Positions 17,550 through 42,969 of a stretch of 64,000 nucleotides of DNA are shown here, one piece after another. The notes under the pieces are model-generated. The model was not told the origin of the DNA and made no database searches. It saw nothing but the letters and a program-made list of their open reading frames with translations. Each line of letters opens with the position of its first letter. Within the stretch, counting starts at the first letter, position 1. The stretch is taken from NCBI GenBank assembly GCA_902606835.1, contig CACLHW010000001.1, positions 1-64,000 of the forward strand, given 5' to 3'. The DNA is from an uncultured Pelagibacteraceae bacterium. GTDB lineage: Bacteria; Pseudomonadota; Alphaproteobacteria; Pelagibacterales; Pelagibacteraceae. A program made the translations under genes and the position numbers.

Positions 17550-18374
17550 ATGATAGTTTGGTTATCATCTTATCCCAAAAGTGGAAATACGTGGGTAAGA
17601 GCTTTTTTAAGTGCATATTTGCATTCATCTAAAGGTAAATTTGATTTTACTTTAATTGATAAAATTGAGGAGTTTCCACAACATAATTTGATGAAAAAAT
17701 TTATGGAGAACAAAGATTTCCATAATTTAAAAGAAATTTCGAAAAATTGGATAAAGGTTCAAGAGTTTATGAACTTAAATAAAAAGACTAAATTTTTAAA
17801 AACTCATAGCGCTTTTTGTAATATAAATGGAAATTTTTTCACTGATGAAAAAAATACTTTAGCTTTCATCTATATTGTTAGAGACCCAAGAAACGTAATT
17901 CTTTCAATGTCTAACCATTTCGGAAAATCCCAGGAAGAAAGTTTTAGAACTTTAATTGATGAAAAATATACAATTTACCCCATGGTTAATAATCAATTAT
18001 TTCTTGCTACTCATGTTTCAAGTTGGAATAAAAATTATCTATCTTGGAAAAATTTTAAATCAATAAATAAAATAATTATTAAATACGAAGACTTAATTAA
18101 TAATCCTAAAAATACCTTCAAAAGTATAATCAATTTTTTAGAAAAATATGTAGATATTAAGTATGATGAAGAAAAATTAACAAATTCAATTAACACAACT
18201 AATTTTGAGGATTTTAAAAAATATGAAAATAAATATGGATTTAACAAAGGACAAAAAAATAAATTTTTTCATTTAGGAAAACAAAATGACTGGAGAAATT
18301 TATTAGATGCAAAAATTTGCGATAAAGTTAACGCTCAGTTTGAATCTGAAATGAGTGAATTAGGATATATTTGA
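17550..18374 (+). CDS. PAPS-dependent sulfotransferase
   Basis: 5'-PSB loop YPKSGNTWVRAFL and 3'-PB motif YIVRDPRNVILSMSNH. Confidence 0.85.
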   Translation: MIVWLSSYPKSGNTWVRAFLSAYLHSSKGKFDFTLIDKIEEFPQHNLMKKFMENKDFHNLKEISKNWIKVQEFMNLNKKTKFLKTHSAFCNINGNFFTDEKNTLAFIYIVRDPRNVILSMSNHFGKSQEESFRTLIDEKYTIYPMVNNQLFLATHVSSWNKNYLSWKNFKSINKIIIKYEDLINNPKNTFKSIINFLEKYVDIKYDEEKLTNSINTTNFEDFKKYENKYGFNKGQKNKFFHLGKQNDWRNLLDAKICDKVNAQFESEMSELGYI

Positions 18375-18450
18375 ATTTTTTTTTAATAATTGTGAATCGT
18401 TAGCTTGAAAGAATTTATAAACTCAAGTAAAACATTTAATTATTATGAAA

Positions 18451-18527
18451 GGGCCTGTAGCTCAGCTGGTTAGAGCAGTACACTCATAATGTATTGGTCC
18501 CAGGTTCGAATCCTGGCGGGCCCACCA
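18451..18527 (+). tRNA. tRNA with CAT anticodon; probably tRNA-Ile2 (lysidine-type), elongator tRNA-Met not excluded
   Basis: GGGCCTG/CGGGCCC acceptor stem, anticodon loop CTCATAA, TTCGAAT T-loop, encoded CCA; acceptor/D-arm is tRNA-Ile-like. Confidence 0.93.
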
Positions 18528-18531
18528 TTTT

Positions 18532-19410
18532 TTACCTAGAATTAAAAATATCAATTATATTTTTCGCAATATTTTTTTTATCGAATTGTACCTTATATTT
18601 TTTCCCTAATTCTAAGGCTAATTTTCTATTTTCTTCATATTTTTTATCTAATTCTTCTATTTTTTTTACCATTGCGAATGGATCAGGTTCACAAATAAAG
18701 TTTTGAGGTGAAAATTCTTTCGCAGTCAAATTATCTGAACAAGTTATAGGTATTGCTCCACAAATCATTCCTTCAATCATGGGCAAACCAAGACCTTCAG
18801 CGATTGAAGGCAGCAAAACATATCTTGAAGAGTTATAAACATTATTTAATTCTTCATCTTTTATGACTCCAAGATATTTTCCAAATCCAGGGTCTTTTAG
18901 ACCACAAATTTTTATTTTTTTCTCGCCATCTTTAATTTTTTTGAGACTATTTACTACAAGACTAAATCTTTTCACTTCATCAAAAACTCTTCCAACATAA
19001 AAAAAATCATTATTTTTTTTTATATTTTCATCAAGATAGACATCTTTAATTGGGTTATAAACTACATGAATATTTTTATTATAAAATTCAGCTAAATCTT
19101 TTTTTACTTTAAAACTTATTGTAGTTATTGCGTCTGCATTTAAAAAAAAATGTTTTACCAGTAAACGGGTTTTATCCTCAACATGAGGTATATGCCATGG
19201 CACGTCTAAAAAATTCAAAATTAAATATGATTTTGGATATTTTTTTTTTAAAAATAATGCTTTTTCGTAGCCCACGGGATCATTAGAATATATTAAGTCT
19301 GGAGATTCCTCTGATAAAATATGACCTAGAGCCTTCATACCTTCTTTTATCCTTGGTATTTGACAGACATATCCGTCGGAACCTAATATGGATACTTTAA
19401 TATTATTCAT
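18532..19410 (-). CDS. Glycosyltransferase family 1 (GT4-like)
   Basis: VVYNPIKDVYLDE...FFYVGRVFDEVKRFSLVVNSLKKI...LLPSIAEGLGLPMIEGMICGAIPITC. Confidence 0.8.
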   Translation of the reverse strand: MNNIKVSILGSDGYVCQIPRIKEGMKALGHILSEESPDLIYSNDPVGYEKALFLKKKYPKSYLILNFLDVPWHIPHVEDKTRLLVKHFFLNADAITTISFKVKKDLAEFYNKNIHVVYNPIKDVYLDENIKKNNDFFYVGRVFDEVKRFSLVVNSLKKIKDGEKKIKICGLKDPGFGKYLGVIKDEELNNVYNSSRYVLLPSIAEGLGLPMIEGMICGAIPITCSDNLTAKEFSPQNFICEPDPFAMVKKIEELDKKYEENRKLALELGKKYKVQFDKKNIAKNIIDIFNSR

Positions 19411-19473
19411 AAAATAAGTTTATAAATTTTAAAATATACAAAGCAAGACACGATATATATATATAATAAAATT

Positions 19474-20298
19474 ATGTTAATAGACTCTTTTTTATTTTTC
19501 AACGAATCTGAACTAGCTGAATTAAGGATTAAATATTTAGAAAAAATAGTTGATTATTTTATAGTTATAGAGGCTAATATCACGCATCAAGGAAAAAAAA
19601 AGCCATGGAATTTTCCAACATTATTAGAAAATAATTTAAAGCCATTTTCAAATAAAATACAATATCACCAGATAAACATTGACCCTGATAAAATAAAAAA
19701 TAAAGAAAGTTGGATAATTGATGATGTGAAAGGTGACGACGCATGGAGAATAGAAAATTTTCAAAGAAATTACATTAAAGAGGCATGTAAACAATTTGCT
19801 AATAAAGATATTTTAGTAATCAGTGATGTTGATGAAATTCCTTCAAAATTAAAACTTGAATTTATAAAATCCTGTGATTTTAAAAAAATTGCTCCTATAG
19901 CTTTTGAACAATACCTATTTCACATAGATTGTAACTTTCTAAAACTAGAAAGCTGGAGAGGAAGTATTGTTACTACTTTGGAAGTGTGTAATGCTTTCTC
20001 CCCACATCGACTTAGAAGATCAAGGAATAGAATATCACATTTTACAGACTCCGGATGGAGCTTTTCTTCATTTGGAGGGCCTGAAAAGGTTAAAGAAAAA
20101 CTAGAGTCAATAGCACATACAGAATTTAATAATGAAAAATTTAAAAATTTTAATCATATAATTAATTGTCAGAAGACTGGTGCAGATTTATTTCATAGAG
20201 ATGTTAAAGCAAAAAGAATAAACAAATCATTTTTTCCAAAAGATTTACTAAAGTTAATGGAAGAAAATCCTGATTATTATTTTGGAGCTAAAGTTTGA
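19474..20298 (+). CDS. Glycosyltransferase family 17-like (beta-1,4-GlcNAc transferase type)
   Basis: MLIDSFLFFNESELAELRIKYLEKIVDYFIVIEANITHQGKKKPW...DDAWRIENFQRNYI...ISDVDEIP. Confidence 0.8.
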   Translation: MLIDSFLFFNESELAELRIKYLEKIVDYFIVIEANITHQGKKKPWNFPTLLENNLKPFSNKIQYHQINIDPDKIKNKESWIIDDVKGDDAWRIENFQRNYIKEACKQFANKDILVISDVDEIPSKLKLEFIKSCDFKKIAPIAFEQYLFHIDCNFLKLESWRGSIVTTLEVCNAFSPHRLRRSRNRISHFTDSGWSFSSFGGPEKVKEKLESIAHTEFNNEKFKNFNHIINCQKTGADLFHRDVKAKRINKSFFPKDLLKLMEENPDYYFGAKV

Positions 20299-20301
20299 AA
20301 A

Positions 20302-21033
20302 ATGATTTATGTTTCTTTAAGCACCATTCCGCAAAGAGTTAAAAATATAAACCTTTCCATTGATTCATTATTAAAACAAACAAAAAAACCTGATAAAATT
20401 TTTATTAATATACCTCATAAGTACAATCGTTTTGATGAAATTATTCATGATAATGAAATACCAAAATTTTCTAATGATATTGTTGAAGTAACTAGATGTG
20501 AGGACTGCGGTCCAGGAACTAAATTATTAGGATCATTGAAAAAATTAAAAAAAAATTCTTTGATAATATTAGCTGATGACGATCATATTTATGAAGATTA
20601 TATGATAGAAAAATTTTATTATTTTTATTCTAAAGCGCCTAATAATGCATATAGTTTTTATGTTCATCCTTTAGGTAATTTTGGTGTTGGACAAGGAGCT
20701 GATGGTTTTGCAATAAACACAAACCATCTAGAGGGTATTAAATTTTTTTATGATAAAATTATAAAAGATTATAAAGAACTTTTTTTATATGATGATTTAT
20801 GGATTTCCTATTTCTTGTATTTTTTTAAAAAAAATAAAATTCTTTCTTTACAAGAACACCTTAAAAAAAATGAACATAATAAAAAATCCTTAATTTATAA
20901 GACCCACATTGTAGCTTCAGGACTTGTTTCAACTTATGGAAAAAATTTAATTGAAGCAGTAAAAAAAAGAGATCAAATTGCTTTTGAAAGTTTAAAGTAT
21001 ATGAATGAGAAGACGAAAGGTTTATCTTTTTGA
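20302..21033 (+). CDS. Glycosyltransferase family 2-like
   Basis: YVSLSTIPQRVKNINLSIDSLLKQTKKPDKIFINIP...LADDDHIYEDYMIE. Confidence 0.65.
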   Translation: MIYVSLSTIPQRVKNINLSIDSLLKQTKKPDKIFINIPHKYNRFDEIIHDNEIPKFSNDIVEVTRCEDCGPGTKLLGSLKKLKKNSLIILADDDHIYEDYMIEKFYYFYSKAPNNAYSFYVHPLGNFGVGQGADGFAINTNHLEGIKFFYDKIIKDYKELFLYDDLWISYFLYFFKKNKILSLQEHLKKNEHNKKSLIYKTHIVASGLVSTYGKNLIEAVKKRDQIAFESLKYMNEKTKGLSF

Positions 21034-22006
21034 AACCCTAGCTTTATCTAAGAAGCTTTTCCACTCTAAAGATCTTACATCCCATGAATAAATATCATTA
21101 ATTTTTTCTCTTTGTAATTTTAGTTTTTTTTTGCGTTGAGGCTGACCAAAAATTTTTAATACTATCTAAAAGAGCTTCTTGATACTTTTTTTCTAATTCT
21201 TCTGGTGTTTTTTCAAAATTTATTATTTTTCCAAATGGTGAACAGGTTTCGTTAAGAGCTCCAAGATTTGTAGTTACTACTTCGCAACCAGCAGCTAACG
21301 ATTCTATTGCAGCTATGCAACTTGTTTCTGGCCAAATACTGGGATAAGAAAAAATATGCATTTTTTTTAATTTTTCTATTATTTTTTCATTCTTTAAAAA
21401 ACCAAAGTAATTAACATTTTTTGTATTTTTACATTCATCAAAAAGTTCCTTGTAAGTTTTTCCAAGAATTGAATCAAATTTTTTTCCATAAATTATTGTA
21501 GAAGAGCAGACATTTAGCTCTACATTTTCCAAATTTAAATTTTTAAAAACTTTTAATAAAAGTTTTAGTCCTCTCCAGGGTGTAGTGTGGTAAATTAAAT
21601 TTATTTTATCTGAAGGTTTTTCAATAAAATTTATTTTTTCTATAGCATTTTTAATCACAACTGTTTTATTTCGAGGAATATGAAAATATTTTATATGCTG
21701 CTCAAGATTCCAGTTGGAGTTATATACAATCCAATCTAATTTATTTATAAATTCTTTAGAGCCCAAATTCTTGGCTTCATTCTGGTTAACAAAATGATGC
21801 ATCCAAAGAACATTAATCTTATCTTTTTCTAGCAAGTTTTGATTTGTGCTATTTAAAATGAGATTTATATCTTTAAAACTTTCATCAGGTAGAAACTTTA
21901 ATAATAATCTAAATTGACTTTCACTTCCTCCAAACGAGTCTTGAAAGGAAACAGGTCTAGATTTATCATCAGTTGCTTTTTTTAGAATTCTAGATTTTTC
22001 TTCCAC
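21022..22006 (-). CDS. Glycosyltransferase (GT4-like), C-terminus apparently frameshifted at a T9 run
   Basis: ORF 21098..22006 plus, after removing one T from the T9 run at about 21124-21132, the tail QKKLKLQREKINDIYSWDVRSLEWKSFLDKARVSKR* ending at 21022; body LIYHTTPWRGLKLLLKVFKNL...SYPSIWPETSCIAAIESLAAGCEVVTTN. Confidence 0.75.
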
Positions 22007-24313: not shown

Positions 24314-24676
24314 CTGCCAGACAACTGATTGGTCGCTTTTGTTGAAAAACAAGAGAGGAAAGTCCGGGCTCTATAGGAACGCGGTGCCAGATAACATCTG
24401 GCGAGGGCAACCTTAGGGATAGTGCCACAGAAAATAAACCGCCTGATCGAGGCAAGGGTGAAAAGGTGTGGTAAGAGCACACCGGTTTTTTGGTAACAAA
24501 AAACGCATGGAAAACCCCACCGGGAGCAAGACCAAATAGAGATAGCAAGGCCTTTTTGGCCGAAAACAGTTCTTAGTTAGCTATCTGGGTTGGTTGCTTG
24601 AGGCTAGGTGCGAACCTAGTCCTAGATAAATGACCAATTTAAATGACAGAACCCGGCTTATAGGTTGTCTGGCTAA
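24314..24676 (+). ncRNA. rnpB: RNase P RNA, bacterial type A
   Basis: P1 pairing GCCAGACAAC (24316..) with GTTGTCTGGC (24664-24673); conserved GAGGAAAGTCCGGGCTC, AAACCGCC, GGGTGAAAAGGTGTGGTAAGAGCACACCG, GGAGCAAGACCAAATAG, ACAGAACCCGGCTTA. Confidence 0.97.
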
Positions 24677-24829: not shown

Positions 24830-24858
24830 TTGACGTATAGGTTGAAAACCCATATTAT
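24830..24858 (+). promoter_or_regulatory. Candidate promoter of the mraZ/ftsZ cluster
   Basis: TTGACG (24830-24835), 17 nt spacer, TATTAT (24853-24858). Confidence 0.65.
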
Positions 24859-24872
24859 CCCATGTATTCCCA
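24849..24872 (+). promoter_or_regulatory. Putative MraZ operator: three CCCA (TGGG on the other strand) boxes at exact 10-bp spacing
   Basis: CCCA at 24849-24852, 24859-24862 and 24869-24872, surrounding the -10 hexamer, upstream of mraZ. Confidence 0.7.
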
Positions 24873-24954
24873 AGGAGGGGGATTTAGTGCTCAAAACAGA
24901 AAAATACATGCCGTTTCATGATTTTTTTTGGGGTGCTGCTGACTTAAAAAAAAC

Positions 24955-25419
24955 ATGTTTTTATCTACTTACGAAAACAAATTGGACAAAAAATGGAGGG
25001 TATCTGTGCCTGCAAGTTTTAGATCATATCTAAGCAGCCTTGGTTATAATGGAGTTATTTGCTACCCATCTTTTAATAATCCCTCTATAGAAGGATGTCC
25101 ACAAAATAGAATTGAAAAAATTTCAAACTCAATAGATTCATTAAATCCTTTTGAAGAAAAAAGAGATATTTTTGCTACATCAGTTTTAGCTGAAAGTGTT
25201 AATCTCCAATTTGATAGCGAAGGAAGAATATCTATACCTGATAAATTATTAAGTCATGCAAAAATAAACCAAACAATGCTTTTTGTTGGTCAAGGAGCAA
25301 CTTTCCAAATTTGGGAACCAAAACTTTTTGAAAAATTTAAAATTCAAGCTAGAAAAAAAGCTAATTTGAATAGAGCAAGTCTAAAATGGGAGTCACAATT
25401 CAAAAAGGAGGATAGATGA
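24955..25419 (+). CDS. mraZ: Transcriptional regulator/division protein MraZ
   Basis: FLSTYENKLDKKWRVSVPASFRSYL, LQFDSEGRISIPDKLLSHAKI, FVGQGATFQIWEP. Confidence 0.93.
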   Translation: MFLSTYENKLDKKWRVSVPASFRSYLSSLGYNGVICYPSFNNPSIEGCPQNRIEKISNSIDSLNPFEEKRDIFATSVLAESVNLQFDSEGRISIPDKLLSHAKINQTMLFVGQGATFQIWEPKLFEKFKIQARKKANLNRASLKWESQFKKEDR

Positions 25420-26912
25420 CAATTAATATAAAAGGTCCAGAATTAAGAGAGTTAAAGCCAAGAATTTTAGTTTTAGGAGTTGGAGGAGCTGGAGGAAATG
25501 CAATTAATAGTATGATCGAATCCGGATTACAAGGTGTAGAGTTTGTTGCAATCAATACGGATGCTCAAGATTTAAAAAATAATAAAGCGCATGCCAAAAT
25601 TCAAATAGGAACTAATTTAACCAAAGGACTTGGAGCGGGAGCAAAACACGATATTGGTCAAGCTGCAGCCGATGAATCTTTAAATGATATTATAGACTAC
25701 ATAAAAGGTAGTAATATGGTTTTTATAACCGCTGGAATGGGGGGTGGAACTGGTACTGGAGCATCTCATGTAATAGCGAGGGCAGCAAAAGAACTAAATA
25801 TTCTGACAGTTGGAGTTGTAACACTTCCTTTTTCTTATGAAGGTCCAAAAAGAATGAGAATAGCTTTTGAAGGATTAGAAGAATTAAAAAAACATTTAGA
25901 CACAAACATTATAGTTCCAAATCAAAATTTGTTTAAAATTATTAACGAAAAGACAACTTTTAAAAATTCTTTTGGACTATCTAATGATGTACTAAAATTT
26001 GGTGTTCAAAGCGTTACAGATTTAATGGTAAGACCAGGTTTAGTGAATTTAGATTTTGCTGATGTTGAAACCATCATGAAAGGAATGGGAAAAGCTATGA
26101 TGGGAACTGGAGAAGCAGAAGGAGAGAAAAGAGCTGAAGAAGCGACAAATGCAGCATTAATAAATCCTTTAATTGATGAATATTCTTTAAAAGGCGCCAA
26201 AGGTCTTTTGGTAAATATTACTGGTGGTAATGATTTAACTTTATTTGAAGTAGATGAAGTAGTGAACAAGATTAGAGCAGAAGTAGATCCGGAAGCAGAA
26301 TTAATTTGTGGTTCTATTGAAGATCAAAGTTTAAATGGAAAAATTAGAGTTTCTATTGTAGCCACATCTTTAGATGGTCAAGAACCAGAAAGAAAACCAA
26401 TAATAAGTATGGTGCATAGACTACATAACAGAAATTCTGGTTATTCTAGTAATCCAAATAACATCCCATCATCTAATCAGGCTGCTTTAAATGCAACAGA
26501 AGGAGCAACTGCTTTAGATATAAATGTGGTCAATGAGCAAAACCCAATAGTAGAAAATGAGATAAATCATAATGAAATTACAGAAGTTCAAACAGAAACT
26601 CAAAAAGAACCTTCCCTAGAAAACATTTCACTTGAAAATGCAGCCTATCTACAAAGTATGGAAGCCGAGTCTAATGAAGAAAACATGCCTAAATTTGAAG
26701 TAGATAGCATTGAATTAGCAACCCCAGAGCTTTTTTCTGAAAGTTCTAATGACAATTCATTTAGTCAAAGTGAAAATAAAAATGAACCTCAGATATTTGA
26801 CAATAAAACACCTAAGGAAGAATCCGAAATAAAAGAGCCAGAAATGTTCGAAGATAATAATCAGGAGGAAGACTTTGAAATACCAGCTTTTTTACGAAGA
26901 CAAAAAAATTAA
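25416..26912 (+). CDS. ftsZ: Cell division protein FtsZ
   Basis: VGGAGGNAINSMI, AGMGGGTGTGASHVIA, C-terminal conserved peptide IPAFLRRQ. Confidence 0.98.
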   Translation: MTINIKGPELRELKPRILVLGVGGAGGNAINSMIESGLQGVEFVAINTDAQDLKNNKAHAKIQIGTNLTKGLGAGAKHDIGQAAADESLNDIIDYIKGSNMVFITAGMGGGTGTGASHVIARAAKELNILTVGVVTLPFSYEGPKRMRIAFEGLEELKKHLDTNIIVPNQNLFKIINEKTTFKNSFGLSNDVLKFGVQSVTDLMVRPGLVNLDFADVETIMKGMGKAMMGTGEAEGEKRAEEATNAALINPLIDEYSLKGAKGLLVNITGGNDLTLFEVDEVVNKIRAEVDPEAELICGSIEDQSLNGKIRVSIVATSLDGQEPERKPIISMVHRLHNRNSGYSSNPNNIPSSNQAALNATEGATALDINVVNEQNPIVENEINHNEITEVQTETQKEPSLENISLENAAYLQSMEAESNEENMPKFEVDSIELATPELFSESSNDNSFSQSENKNEPQIFDNKTPKEESEIKEPEMFEDNNQEEDFEIPAFLRRQKN

Positions 26913-26937
26913 ATGGAAAACAATAGAGAATTTTATG

Positions 26938-27948
26938 AATGCCACCATGTCACTGGAAAAAACAAAACATTATCCAGTGATGCTAAATCAAGTATTAAGC
27001 ATTATATCCCCTCAACATGGTGGCACATTTATTGACTGTACTTTTGGTGGAGGGGGCTATTCAGAAGCCATATTAAAATTTCCACAAACTCAAGTCACAG
27101 CTATTGATAGAGACAAGCTAGTTGAAAGATTTTCAAAGCCATTAACAAAAAGGTTTCCAAAAAGATTTAATTTTTTTCAAGAAAAATTCAGCAATATAGG
27201 AAAATTAGATCAAAACAAACTTAATGCACGTGCCATAATATTTGATTTAGGTCTTTCTTCTTTTCAACTATCAGATGATAAAAGAGGTTTTTCATTTGGA
27301 TCAAAAAATTTTTTAAATATGGAAATGGGAATTAACGAATATTCTACCTATGAAGTTATAAATACTTTAGATAAGGAATATTTAGCAAAAATTATAAAAA
27401 TTTTAGGAGATGAAAAAGATGGAAAACTTATAGCTAATAAAATTGATAAGTATAGGAAAAAAAAACCTATAAAAAGTTCTGAACAATTAGCTTCTATAAT
27501 TAAGGAAGCAAAGAAAAATTATAATCGTTATAAAATAAATCCAGCAACTAAAACTTTTCAAGCAATAAGAATATTTGTAAATAAAGAACTCACCGAATTA
27601 ATTTTAGGTTTAATCGAAGCAACAAAACTTCTCTCAAATGGGGGAGTGCTTGCTGTTGTTAGTTTTCATTCTTTAGAAGACAAAATAGTAAAAAACTTTT
27701 TTAATCTTTATTCTAATTTAAAAACAAATCCTTCCAGATATCTTCCTGAAAGAAATGAAAAATCTATTTTGTTTAAAAATGTATCTAAAAAACCAATTGT
27801 GCCACATCAAGATGAAATAATTAAAAATAAACGTTCACGATCTGCAAAACTTAGATATGCGATTAGAAATGCCAATTCTTTTTTCTACCCTGAAGATTTT
27901 AAAAATAAATTCATTAAATACACAGAACTAGAGGGAGGAAAAATATGA
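26938..27948 (+). CDS. rsmH (mraW): 16S rRNA m4C1402 methyltransferase
   Basis: HYPVMLNQVLSII...GTFIDCTFGGGGYSEAIL, FDLGLSSFQLSDDKRGFSF, VSFHSLEDKIVKNFF; the ORF opens at 26875 inside ftsZ, ATG at 26938 or 26950 is more plausible. Confidence 0.95.
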   Translation, partial: NATMSLEKTKHYPVMLNQVLSIISPQHGGTFIDCTFGGGGYSEAILKFPQTQVTAIDRDKLVERFSKPLTKRFPKRFNFFQEKFSNIGKLDQNKLNARAIIFDLGLSSFQLSDDKRGFSFGSKNFLNMEMGINEYSTYEVINTLDKEYLAKIIKILGDEKDGKLIANKIDKYRKKKPIKSSEQLASIIKEAKKNYNRYKINPATKTFQAIRIFVNKELTELILGLIEATKLLSNGGVLAVVSFHSLEDKIVKNFFNLYSNLKTNPSRYLPERNEKSILFKNVSKKPIVPHQDEIIKNKRSRSAKLRYAIRNANSFFYPEDFKNKFIKYTELEGGKI

Positions 27949-41057: not shown

Positions 41058-41737
41058 AAAAATTATATAAAATAATTTTATTATTAGCAGTTTTAATTTT
41101 TATATCTACGTATAACCCAAATGAACTTGGATCAAATTTTAAAAATAATTATGATTTTTTTAAAGTACAAAAAATCCTGGTTTTAAATAATACTTTAGTA
41201 AAAAAAAATATAATTAAAAATAAATTAGACCATATATATAAAAAAAATATTTTTTTAATAAAAAGACAAGATGTTGAAGAATCTCTAAAAGAAGTGGATT
41301 TTTTAGAAAAAATTGAAGTTAAAAAAAAGTATCCAAATACAGTAATAATTAAAATTTTTGAGACAAAACCAGTTGGAATTTTGTTCAAAAATAAAGATAA
41401 ATATATAATGGATAATTTAGCTAATTTAATTCTTTTTTATGAGAATTCAAAATTTATAAAACTTCCAAATATTTTTGGTGATGGGGCAGAAAAAGACTTT
41501 CTAAATTTTTTTGATAAGCTTAATGTTAATAAGTTTCCAAAGGAAGAAATTAAAAATTTTTTTTACTTTAGAATAGGTAGATGGGACTTAGAATTGGTAA
41601 ATAACAAAACGATTAAATTTCCGCATAATGTAAAAAATGATGTTATAAAAAAATCTATAGAATTGCTACAACGTAAAGATTTTCAAAACTATAATATTAT
41701 TGATTTACGGATAGATGGTAAGATAATAGTTGAGTAA
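41054..41737 (+). CDS. ftsQ: Cell division protein FtsQ (POTRA domain)
   Basis: N-terminal TM, VEESLKEVDFLEKIEVKKKYPNTVIIKIFETKPVGI, DLRIDGKIIV, position between ddl and ftsA. Confidence 0.85.
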   Translation: MKKLYKIILLLAVLIFISTYNPNELGSNFKNNYDFFKVQKILVLNNTLVKKNIIKNKLDHIYKKNIFLIKRQDVEESLKEVDFLEKIEVKKKYPNTVIIKIFETKPVGILFKNKDKYIMDNLANLILFYENSKFIKLPNIFGDGAEKDFLNFFDKLNVNKFPKEEIKNFFYFRIGRWDLELVNNKTIKFPHNVKNDVIKKSIELLQRKDFQNYNIIDLRIDGKIIVE

Positions 41738-42969
41738 TGAATCTTGAAGATCCAATAGGAATAATAGAATTAGGCAATACAAATTTGCAATGCCTTATTT
41801 TTAAAGTCGACAAAAATAATAATACAGAAATACTATCAACATCTACAACTCCTTCAGAAGGAATAAATAATGATGTGATAACTAATTTAGCCAAAGCTTC
41901 CAATGCAATTAGATTGTCAATAAGTACAGCTGAAAAAAAAGCAAAAACTTCTCTTAAAAAAATTAATGTGATCTTGGAACAACCAGATTTTTTATGTACT
42001 AAATTTTCAAAACATAAAAAAATTGATAAGTCTAAAATACACAGACACGATATTGAATTTTTATTAAATGAGGCAAAAAAACAATTAATTCTGAATGATA
42101 AGAATCAATCAATAATTCATATATTTAATCATAACTATATTGTAGACGGAAAAATTTTTGTTGAAGAGCCCATAGATGTTTTTGCAGATACATTAAGCCA
42201 TGAGATGACTTTTATTACAGCTCCAAAAAATAATTTAAAAAATATAAATCAAGTTTTTGATGATTGCGACATAGAAGTTGAAAGATTAATTTCGCGCACT
42301 TTTACGTTAGGAGTAAAATTATTAAGCATAGGAGAATTGCAAACAGGTTCTGCATTAATTAGTTTGGGAAATAAAAAAATTAGTTTAGGTTTATTCAAAA
42401 ATTTAGCACTGGTACATTCAGCAACTATACCTGTCGGTACTGATTATATTTCAAATGATATTTCAAAAGTATGTTCATTAAATTTTAATGAGGCGGAAAT
42501 TATAAAAGAAAATATTGATTTTTCATTTCAAAATAATGAAAAGCTCTTTGATAAAAATAATTATCTCAATGAATCATATTTTTTAGATTCTAACTATAGA
42601 AAAATTAGTAAAAATTTAATTATAAATGTGATTAAGGCAAGATTAGATGAAATTTTTGAAATGTTAAAAAAACAATTAATTGTTCCTGACTTAAAGTTAA
42701 ATTCAGGATTAAATATTTTATTATCAATTGATGGAACTAATTTAATTAATTTAGAAAAATATTGTGAAAATATTTTTAAAACTAATATTAAAAAATTTAA
42801 AAAAAATGAAAATGAGAATGACAATTATTTGGAGAATAATTTTGCTTCATTATTGGGAGCTATTAAAATTATTAGAGATGGATGGGAGACAGAAGCTATA
42901 CCTGAGTTTAGGGAAAAAAATATTGATAAAATAGGCTTTTTTGGCAAATTTTTTGGTAAGCTTAAATAA
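41737..42969 (+). CDS. ftsA: Divergent FtsA-like cell division protein
   Basis: Position after ftsQ, SHEMTFITAPKNNLKNINQVFDDCDIEVERL, C-terminal amphipathic IGFFGKFFGKLK; phosphate-binding motifs atypical. Confidence 0.8.
   Translation: MNLEDPIGIIELGNTNLQCLIFKVDKNNNTEILSTSTTPSEGINNDVITNLAKASNAIRLSISTAEKKAKTSLKKINVILEQPDFLCTKFSKHKKIDKSKIHRHDIEFLLNEAKKQLILNDKNQSIIHIFNHNYIVDGKIFVEEPIDVFADTLSHEMTFITAPKNNLKNINQVFDDCDIEVERLISRTFTLGVKLLSIGELQTGSALISLGNKKISLGLFKNLALVHSATIPVGTDYISNDISKVCSLNFNEAEIIKENIDFSFQNNEKLFDKNNYLNESYFLDSNYRKISKNLIINVIKARLDEIFEMLKKQLIVPDLKLNSGLNILLSIDGTNLINLEKYCENIFKTNIKKFKKNENENDNYLENNFASLLGAIKIIRDGWETEAIPEFREKNIDKIGFFGKFFGKLK

Follow-up and report, generated by a model that had tools for sequence, protein, structure and literature searches.

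A predicted MraZ operator enclosing the -10 element of the mraZ-ftsZ promoter in Pelagibacterales, and an out-of-frame leader reading frame overlapping mraZ

The mraZ-ftsZ locus and its promoter

The stretch of DNA analysed (64 kb of an uncultured Pelagibacteraceae bacterium, hereafter the window) carries a division cluster in which mraZ is followed by ftsZ and rsmH/mraW, and is preceded by a promoter, an array of three short boxes and the gene for RNase P RNA (Table 1). The latter was the only accepted identity in the Rfam search of the window; SNORA26 scored below its cut-off and was dismissed. MraZ is among the most widespread bacterial regulators. The mraZ product here is intact, PF02381 being matched in two stretches that correspond to two AbrB-like half domains, with the conserved D, K, R and P residues in place. 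A cluster of sulfotransferase- and glycosyltransferase-like ORFs (17550-22006) was recognized by eye upstream of the division cluster. Further downstream, the place behind ftsA (41737-42969) where ftsZ would be is taken by an lpxC-like ORF (assigned by eye; region to 43967).

Table 1. Features of the mraZ-ftsZ locus, numbered by position in the window
Feature	Position	Strand	Basis
rnpB (RNase P RNA, class A), immediately upstream of the operator	24317-24676	+	Rfam RF00010, 310 bits
-35 hexamer, TTGACG	24830-24835	+	Sequence; TTGAC kept in upstream regions of the window's own family
Predicted MraZ box 1, CCCA (template strand TGGG)	24849-24852	+	Sequence
-10 hexamer, TATTAT (spacer of boxes 1 and 2)	24853-24858	+	Sequence, promoter scan
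Predicted MraZ box 2, CCCA	24859-24862	+	Sequence and conservation
Predicted transcription start	24865-24867	+	Inferred only, 7-9 bp past the -10
Predicted MraZ box 3, CCCA	24869-24872	+	Sequence and conservation
Shine-Dalgarno-like AAGGAGGGGG, strong; touches box 3, serves the leader ORF	24872-24881	+	Sequence
Leader ORF, GTG start, 48 aa; out of frame, overlaps the first 26 mraZ codons	24887-25033	+	Sequence, relatives
A8 run just before the mraZ start	24946-24953	+	Sequence; A7 in most relatives of the genus
mraZ, 154 aa	24955-25419	+	Pfam PF02381, 75.3 bits (cut-off 23)
ftsZ Shine-Dalgarno AAGGAGG, strong	25405-25411	+	Sequence
ftsZ, 498 aa; start overlaps the mraZ stop (ATGA)	25416-26912	+	Pfam PF00091, PF12327
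rsmH/mraW, third gene (open frame, coordinates approximate at the 5' end)	26875-27948	+	Pfam PF01795

The three CCCA boxes repeat with an exact period of 10 bp; the -10 hexamer fills the spacer between boxes 1 and 2, TGTATT fills that between boxes 2 and 3, and 17 bp separate the -35 from the -10. With one mismatch allowed, the triple pattern has a single match in the window, as compared to 0.04 matches expected from dinucleotide shuffles of the same 64 kb. The coordinates given to the boxes and promoter by the first-pass annotation, including the position of the -10 between boxes 1 and 2, were all exact on re-reading. The promoter scan recovers the hexamers as a pair (24830-24858) with 10 of 12 consensus matches, but one such pair was found against 2.0 expected in this AT-rich window. 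The promoter consensus by itself was accordingly rejected as evidence; such hexamers are unremarkable in DNA as AT-rich as this, and the weight therefore rests on the array and its conservation.

The position of ftsZ as the second gene, also proposed by the first-pass annotation, is borne out in the window and is fixed across the order Pelagibacterales, where ftsZ lies directly behind mraZ in all genomes with both genes found on one contig. None of the 56 mraZ loci from other Pseudomonadota has this arrangement. The gene is single-copy in the order, apart from fragments and one genome (G032) with two copies of the whole locus. Throughout the order, ftsZ has been relocated from behind ftsA, at the end of the division cluster, to behind mraZ. 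As ftsZ is gene 2 and shares an ATGA overlap with mraZ, an operator at this promoter would control ftsZ directly, unless there is a promoter inside mraZ. Such an arrangement would give MraZ a feedback role in streamlined, regulator-poor cells, ftsZ being the first gene that it targets.

Conservation of the array and its link to MraZ

The conservation of box spacing in relatives, suggested by the first-pass annotation as a check on an MraZ operator, was assessed in a sample of 100 related genomes of the order, in 82 of which mraZ was located. Upstream regions were read for 64 loci (window counted) from two families, the window's own (f1) and its sister (f2), and all 64 contain CCCA arrays. The exact triple array was found at 65 distinct sites in the 100 genomes, spread over 64 of them and in all cases 28-82 bp upstream of mraZ and on the same strand as mraZ; no exact triple was found away from mraZ, and the pattern written backwards as a control did not occur in the same 100 genomes. 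Since the last box lies anywhere from 21 to 82 nt before mraZ, the conserved element is the array and not the entire spacer.

The boxes are also the most informative columns of the mraZ upstream region in a genus-weighted profile of 45 f1 genomes from 13 genera, a profile that is partly circular as it is anchored on the array itself. Four genera have two exact boxes, and box 1 is not part of their alignment anchor; its CCA is nevertheless invariant in them, as it is throughout the 45 genomes, the first base being C or A. In these four (g5, g7, g9 and g12 of f1), box 1 reads ACCA and the spacing of the -35 and -10 is less canonical, which counts against the operator reading. Most members of f2 have four or five boxes, and mostly carry an additional one between the -35 and the -10. 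The -10 begins directly after a CCCA in 49 of the 62 genomes of the order with a placeable -35/-10 pair, so that CCCA-TAnnAT-CCCA is operator and -10 at once in these genomes. A chance origin of the triple in a single genome has a negligible probability: CCCA is short, and single CCCA-N6-CCCA pairs number nine in this genome, roughly double the control count, but exact triples in 64 genomes, always at mraZ, against an expectation of about zero, refute it.

Outside the order, the CCCA array occurs in nearly all alphaproteobacterial families that have mraZ. It was absent before rsmH from all seven mraZ-less alphaproteobacteria scanned up to 1.5 kb upstream, a set that leaves out two genomes scored as mraZ-less which in fact carry a divergent mraZ missed by the search. 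A stricter triple pattern matched 9 of 11 mraZ-bearing alphaproteobacteria as compared to none of 11 scored as mraZ-less. Read on the other strand, the alphaproteobacterial box corresponds to the repeat upstream of E. coli mraZ, TGGGaaattgTGGGgcaaagTGGG. No description of an MraZ target in Alphaproteobacteria was found in the papers examined. The two best two-box sites elsewhere in the genome (contigs C10 and C11) were rejected as further MraZ targets as they lie inside coding regions.

The conservation of the array at mraZ, its absence where mraZ is absent, and the mraZ-ftsZ synteny make an MraZ operator over the mraZ-ftsZ promoter the best reading of the array, in support of the first-pass annotation. 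We consider it very probable that the array serves the division cluster as its MraZ operator, the binding of MraZ, the occlusion of the promoter, the negative sign and the start site being predictions from sequence. The division cluster of Alphaproteobacteria is subject to several regulators, one being CenR, which acts at the mraZ promoter of R. sphaeroides (PMC9275681), and the periodicity of CCCA might likewise be intrinsic to the promoter or belong to another factor. This is highly improbable as the array tracks the presence of mraZ, occurs in the order only before mraZ, and reads as the reverse complement of the GTGGG box of E. coli and Bacillaceae mraZ with the same 10-bp period.

The placement of the -10 inside the box array makes occlusion of the polymerase the natural mechanism. 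A ring-shaped MraZ oligomer would bind the three template-strand TGGG boxes, which repeat once per helical turn on a single face of the DNA. With the -10 as one of the two box spacers, MraZ on its boxes would block RNA polymerase and thereby repress mraZ together with ftsZ, which is co-transcribed with it. Occlusion, repression by MraZ, the transcription start and translation of the leader described below are all to be taken as predicted steps. The MraZ proteins of E. coli and M. genitalium are repressors, and loss of MraZ in the latter raises the expression of mraW and ftsZ (PMC8475190). MraZ of Neisseria elongata acts positively on the division and cell wall (dcw) cluster, the expression of which is lower without MraZ and rises on its overexpression (PMC9395523); the sign of regulation could hence differ here as well. 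An operator at which MraZ activates or only fine-tunes the promoter, with no occlusion, could in principle use boxes between the -35 and -10 to aid promoter opening. We regard it as distinctly unlikely, as the position of the -10 inside the array in most genomes of the order favours exclusion of the polymerase, in line with the two repressors.

A leader reading frame across the mraZ start

A second feature of the locus is the leader ORF that begins behind the array and runs out of frame into mraZ. An ORF with an ATG, GTG or TTG start follows the array in 44 of 44 f1 relatives, where it occupies the -1 frame and runs through the mraZ start. It overlaps the first 19-21 mraZ codons of these relatives and, in the 29 for which more sequence was available, ends at mraZ nucleotide +59 or +65. 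Of the 44, 42 have a closed +1 frame. In the genome of the window, the extra A of the A-run (A8 as compared to A7) puts the leader in the +1 frame, which is also open there; the A8 (24946-24953) may be real, a polymorphism or an assembly error. The leader ORF has no Pfam match, and no description of such an overlapping leader ORF was found in the papers examined.

Synonymous codon choice in the first codons of mraZ bears on how this frame is kept. T-ending synonyms that would close the -1 frame are used at 0 of 139 sites, as compared to 2048 of 4604 control sites (44%) in the same genes. Asn8 is AAC and Asp11 is GAC in 30 of 30 cases, while T-ending codons make up 74-78% in the controls. For ten genera, the probability that the -1 frame would be open by chance, given the protein and the codon usage, was 0-0.02 each; as the genera are related, the product of these values is not to be read at face value. 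The ftsZ starts of the same genomes show no such pattern, 25 of 30 being closed. The frame is thus strongly constrained in f1, being held open by selection through synonymous codon choice. The residues of the leader peptide vary freely except for the avoidance of stops, which suggests that the act of translation, and not the peptide, matters. In most species of the window's genus the conserved DKKGR of MraZ (residues 11-15, 24985-24999) reads DKKWR, with M or G also found at the variable position; this stretch falls within the overlap with the leader frame.

In the window's genus the leader has clear ribosome sites, and the mraZ ATG lacks a good one of its own; the leader sites of several other genera are weaker. 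Translation of the leader would most simply act as a brake on MraZ synthesis relative to that of FtsZ: with a strong ribosome site and a frame that crosses the mraZ start, the leader would keep MraZ low, and ftsZ, which shares the mRNA and has a strong Shine-Dalgarno to itself, would be made freely. Other roles of the leader fit less well. Termination-reinitiation of the ATGA type is disfavoured, as stops around the start of mraZ are not retained but avoided. A +1 shift of the prfB kind where the leader ends would suit only the genomes with TTT TAG, roughly half of them. No RNA structure was detected in the leader (z +1.1).

In f2 (loci L053-L071), the open -1 leader frame is absent and an in-frame upstream start is found instead. 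MraZ appears to begin about 13-14 codons earlier in this family, at an in-frame TTG behind GAGG directly after the operator, which would give MraZ an N-terminal extension. As this start lies at the same place after the operator as the f1 leader, MraZ of f1 might also be made from the leader start, through frameshifting or polymerase slippage on the A7/A8 run, as an N-terminally extended protein with no leader throttle. The seven to eight A before mraZ in the window's genus and the closest genera are in line with this, but the run is missing from most other genera. Furthermore, the mraZ start codon is ATG at all f1 loci, while the codon at this position in f2 is TTG, CTG, ATA or TTA, and MraZ residues are retained in the mraZ frame over codons 1-19; an extended MraZ is, on balance, unlikely in f1. 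For the combined proposal, in which the MraZ:FtsZ balance of f1 is set by the inverted, promoter-embedded operator together with a predicted translated out-of-frame leader that throttles MraZ while ftsZ is made freely, we judge the chances to be about even. The overlapping leader ORF yields a simple prediction on MraZ dosage.

Orientation of the operator and comparison with known MraZ systems

The orientation of the boxes was compared by a single scoring scheme for three boxes of period 10, with CCCAC set against GTGGG on the coding strand. CCCAC wins at 45 of 45 f1 loci, 19 of 19 f2 loci and 29 of 30 other alphaproteobacterial loci (one tie), so that the array is inverted at 93 of the 94 alphaproteobacterial loci scored. 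GTGGG wins at 24 of 26 loci of beta- and gammaproteobacteria, the non-alpha Pseudomonadota (two ties), in E. coli, and in 80 of 80 Bacillaceae-like species, the loci of which were found with an approximate Bacillus MraZ query. No locus scored opposite to its group. A true exception is G109 (locus L219), an alphaproteobacterium whose MraZ is divergent and whose GTGG triple lies on the coding strand, some 650-680 bp before rsmH; a universal inversion in the class was accordingly rejected. The inverted array is a near-rule of the Alphaproteobacteria, not a law.

Most other alphaproteobacteria have TTGAC in or beside a spacer, and their common -10 region is TGnTATCCCA. Since the boxes of E. coli and Burkholderia cenocepacia lie downstream of the -10, the array of nearly the whole class has been both inverted and shifted onto the core promoter as compared to that of E. 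coli. The E. coli model of boxes downstream of the -10 is consequently not transferable to Alphaproteobacteria. Neither the reversed orientation nor the different place of the E. coli boxes was noted in the first-pass annotation. No description of an inverted, promoter-embedded array was found in a literature search that did not cover the key E. coli paper, and the novelty of the inverted operator is hence not certain.

The locus shares with Pmra (mraZ1p) of E. coli three TGGG-type boxes of exact 10-bp period upstream of mraZ, by a promoter of sigma-70 type at the head of the dcw cluster. The E. coli boxes are on the coding strand, the first beginning 8 bp past the -10, whereas the array described here has its boxes on the template strand, around the -10; ftsZ, gene 2 here, lies at the far end of the E. 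coli dcw cluster. PmraBc of B. cenocepacia likewise has 10-bp-period repeats at the dcw promoter that are bound by MraZ in vitro, but it has four GTG repeats, which overlap the start site and, like the boxes of E. coli, follow the -10 (PMC7761207). The Mollicutes element (AAAGTGK-N3)3 is also a set of direct repeats of 10-bp period, with one site per genome at mraZ and a cluster under it that includes ftsZ (PMC5282649, PMC8475190); it differs in its flanking bases, in the GTG core as written and in serving a four-gene cluster of a wall-less bacterium. The 80 Bacillaceae species have three boxes of 10-bp period directly before mraZ, in their case as coding-strand GTGG (80/80) between the promoter region and the start codon.

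The leader has a partial counterpart in the UpsM region of R. sphaeroides, a long dcw leader before mraZ with a short ORF reported to be weakly translated (PMC5089854). That leader is of 268 nt and holds an sRNA terminator, and its ORF is not described as overlapping mraZ (PMC5089854). The MraZ proteins studied so far bind direct repeats spaced by 10 bp at the mraZ promoter (PMC7761207, PMC5282649). Coding-strand boxes placed after the -10 are a trait of the studied examples and not of binding as such, which suggests the inverted array of Alphaproteobacteria to be a variant of the same operator.
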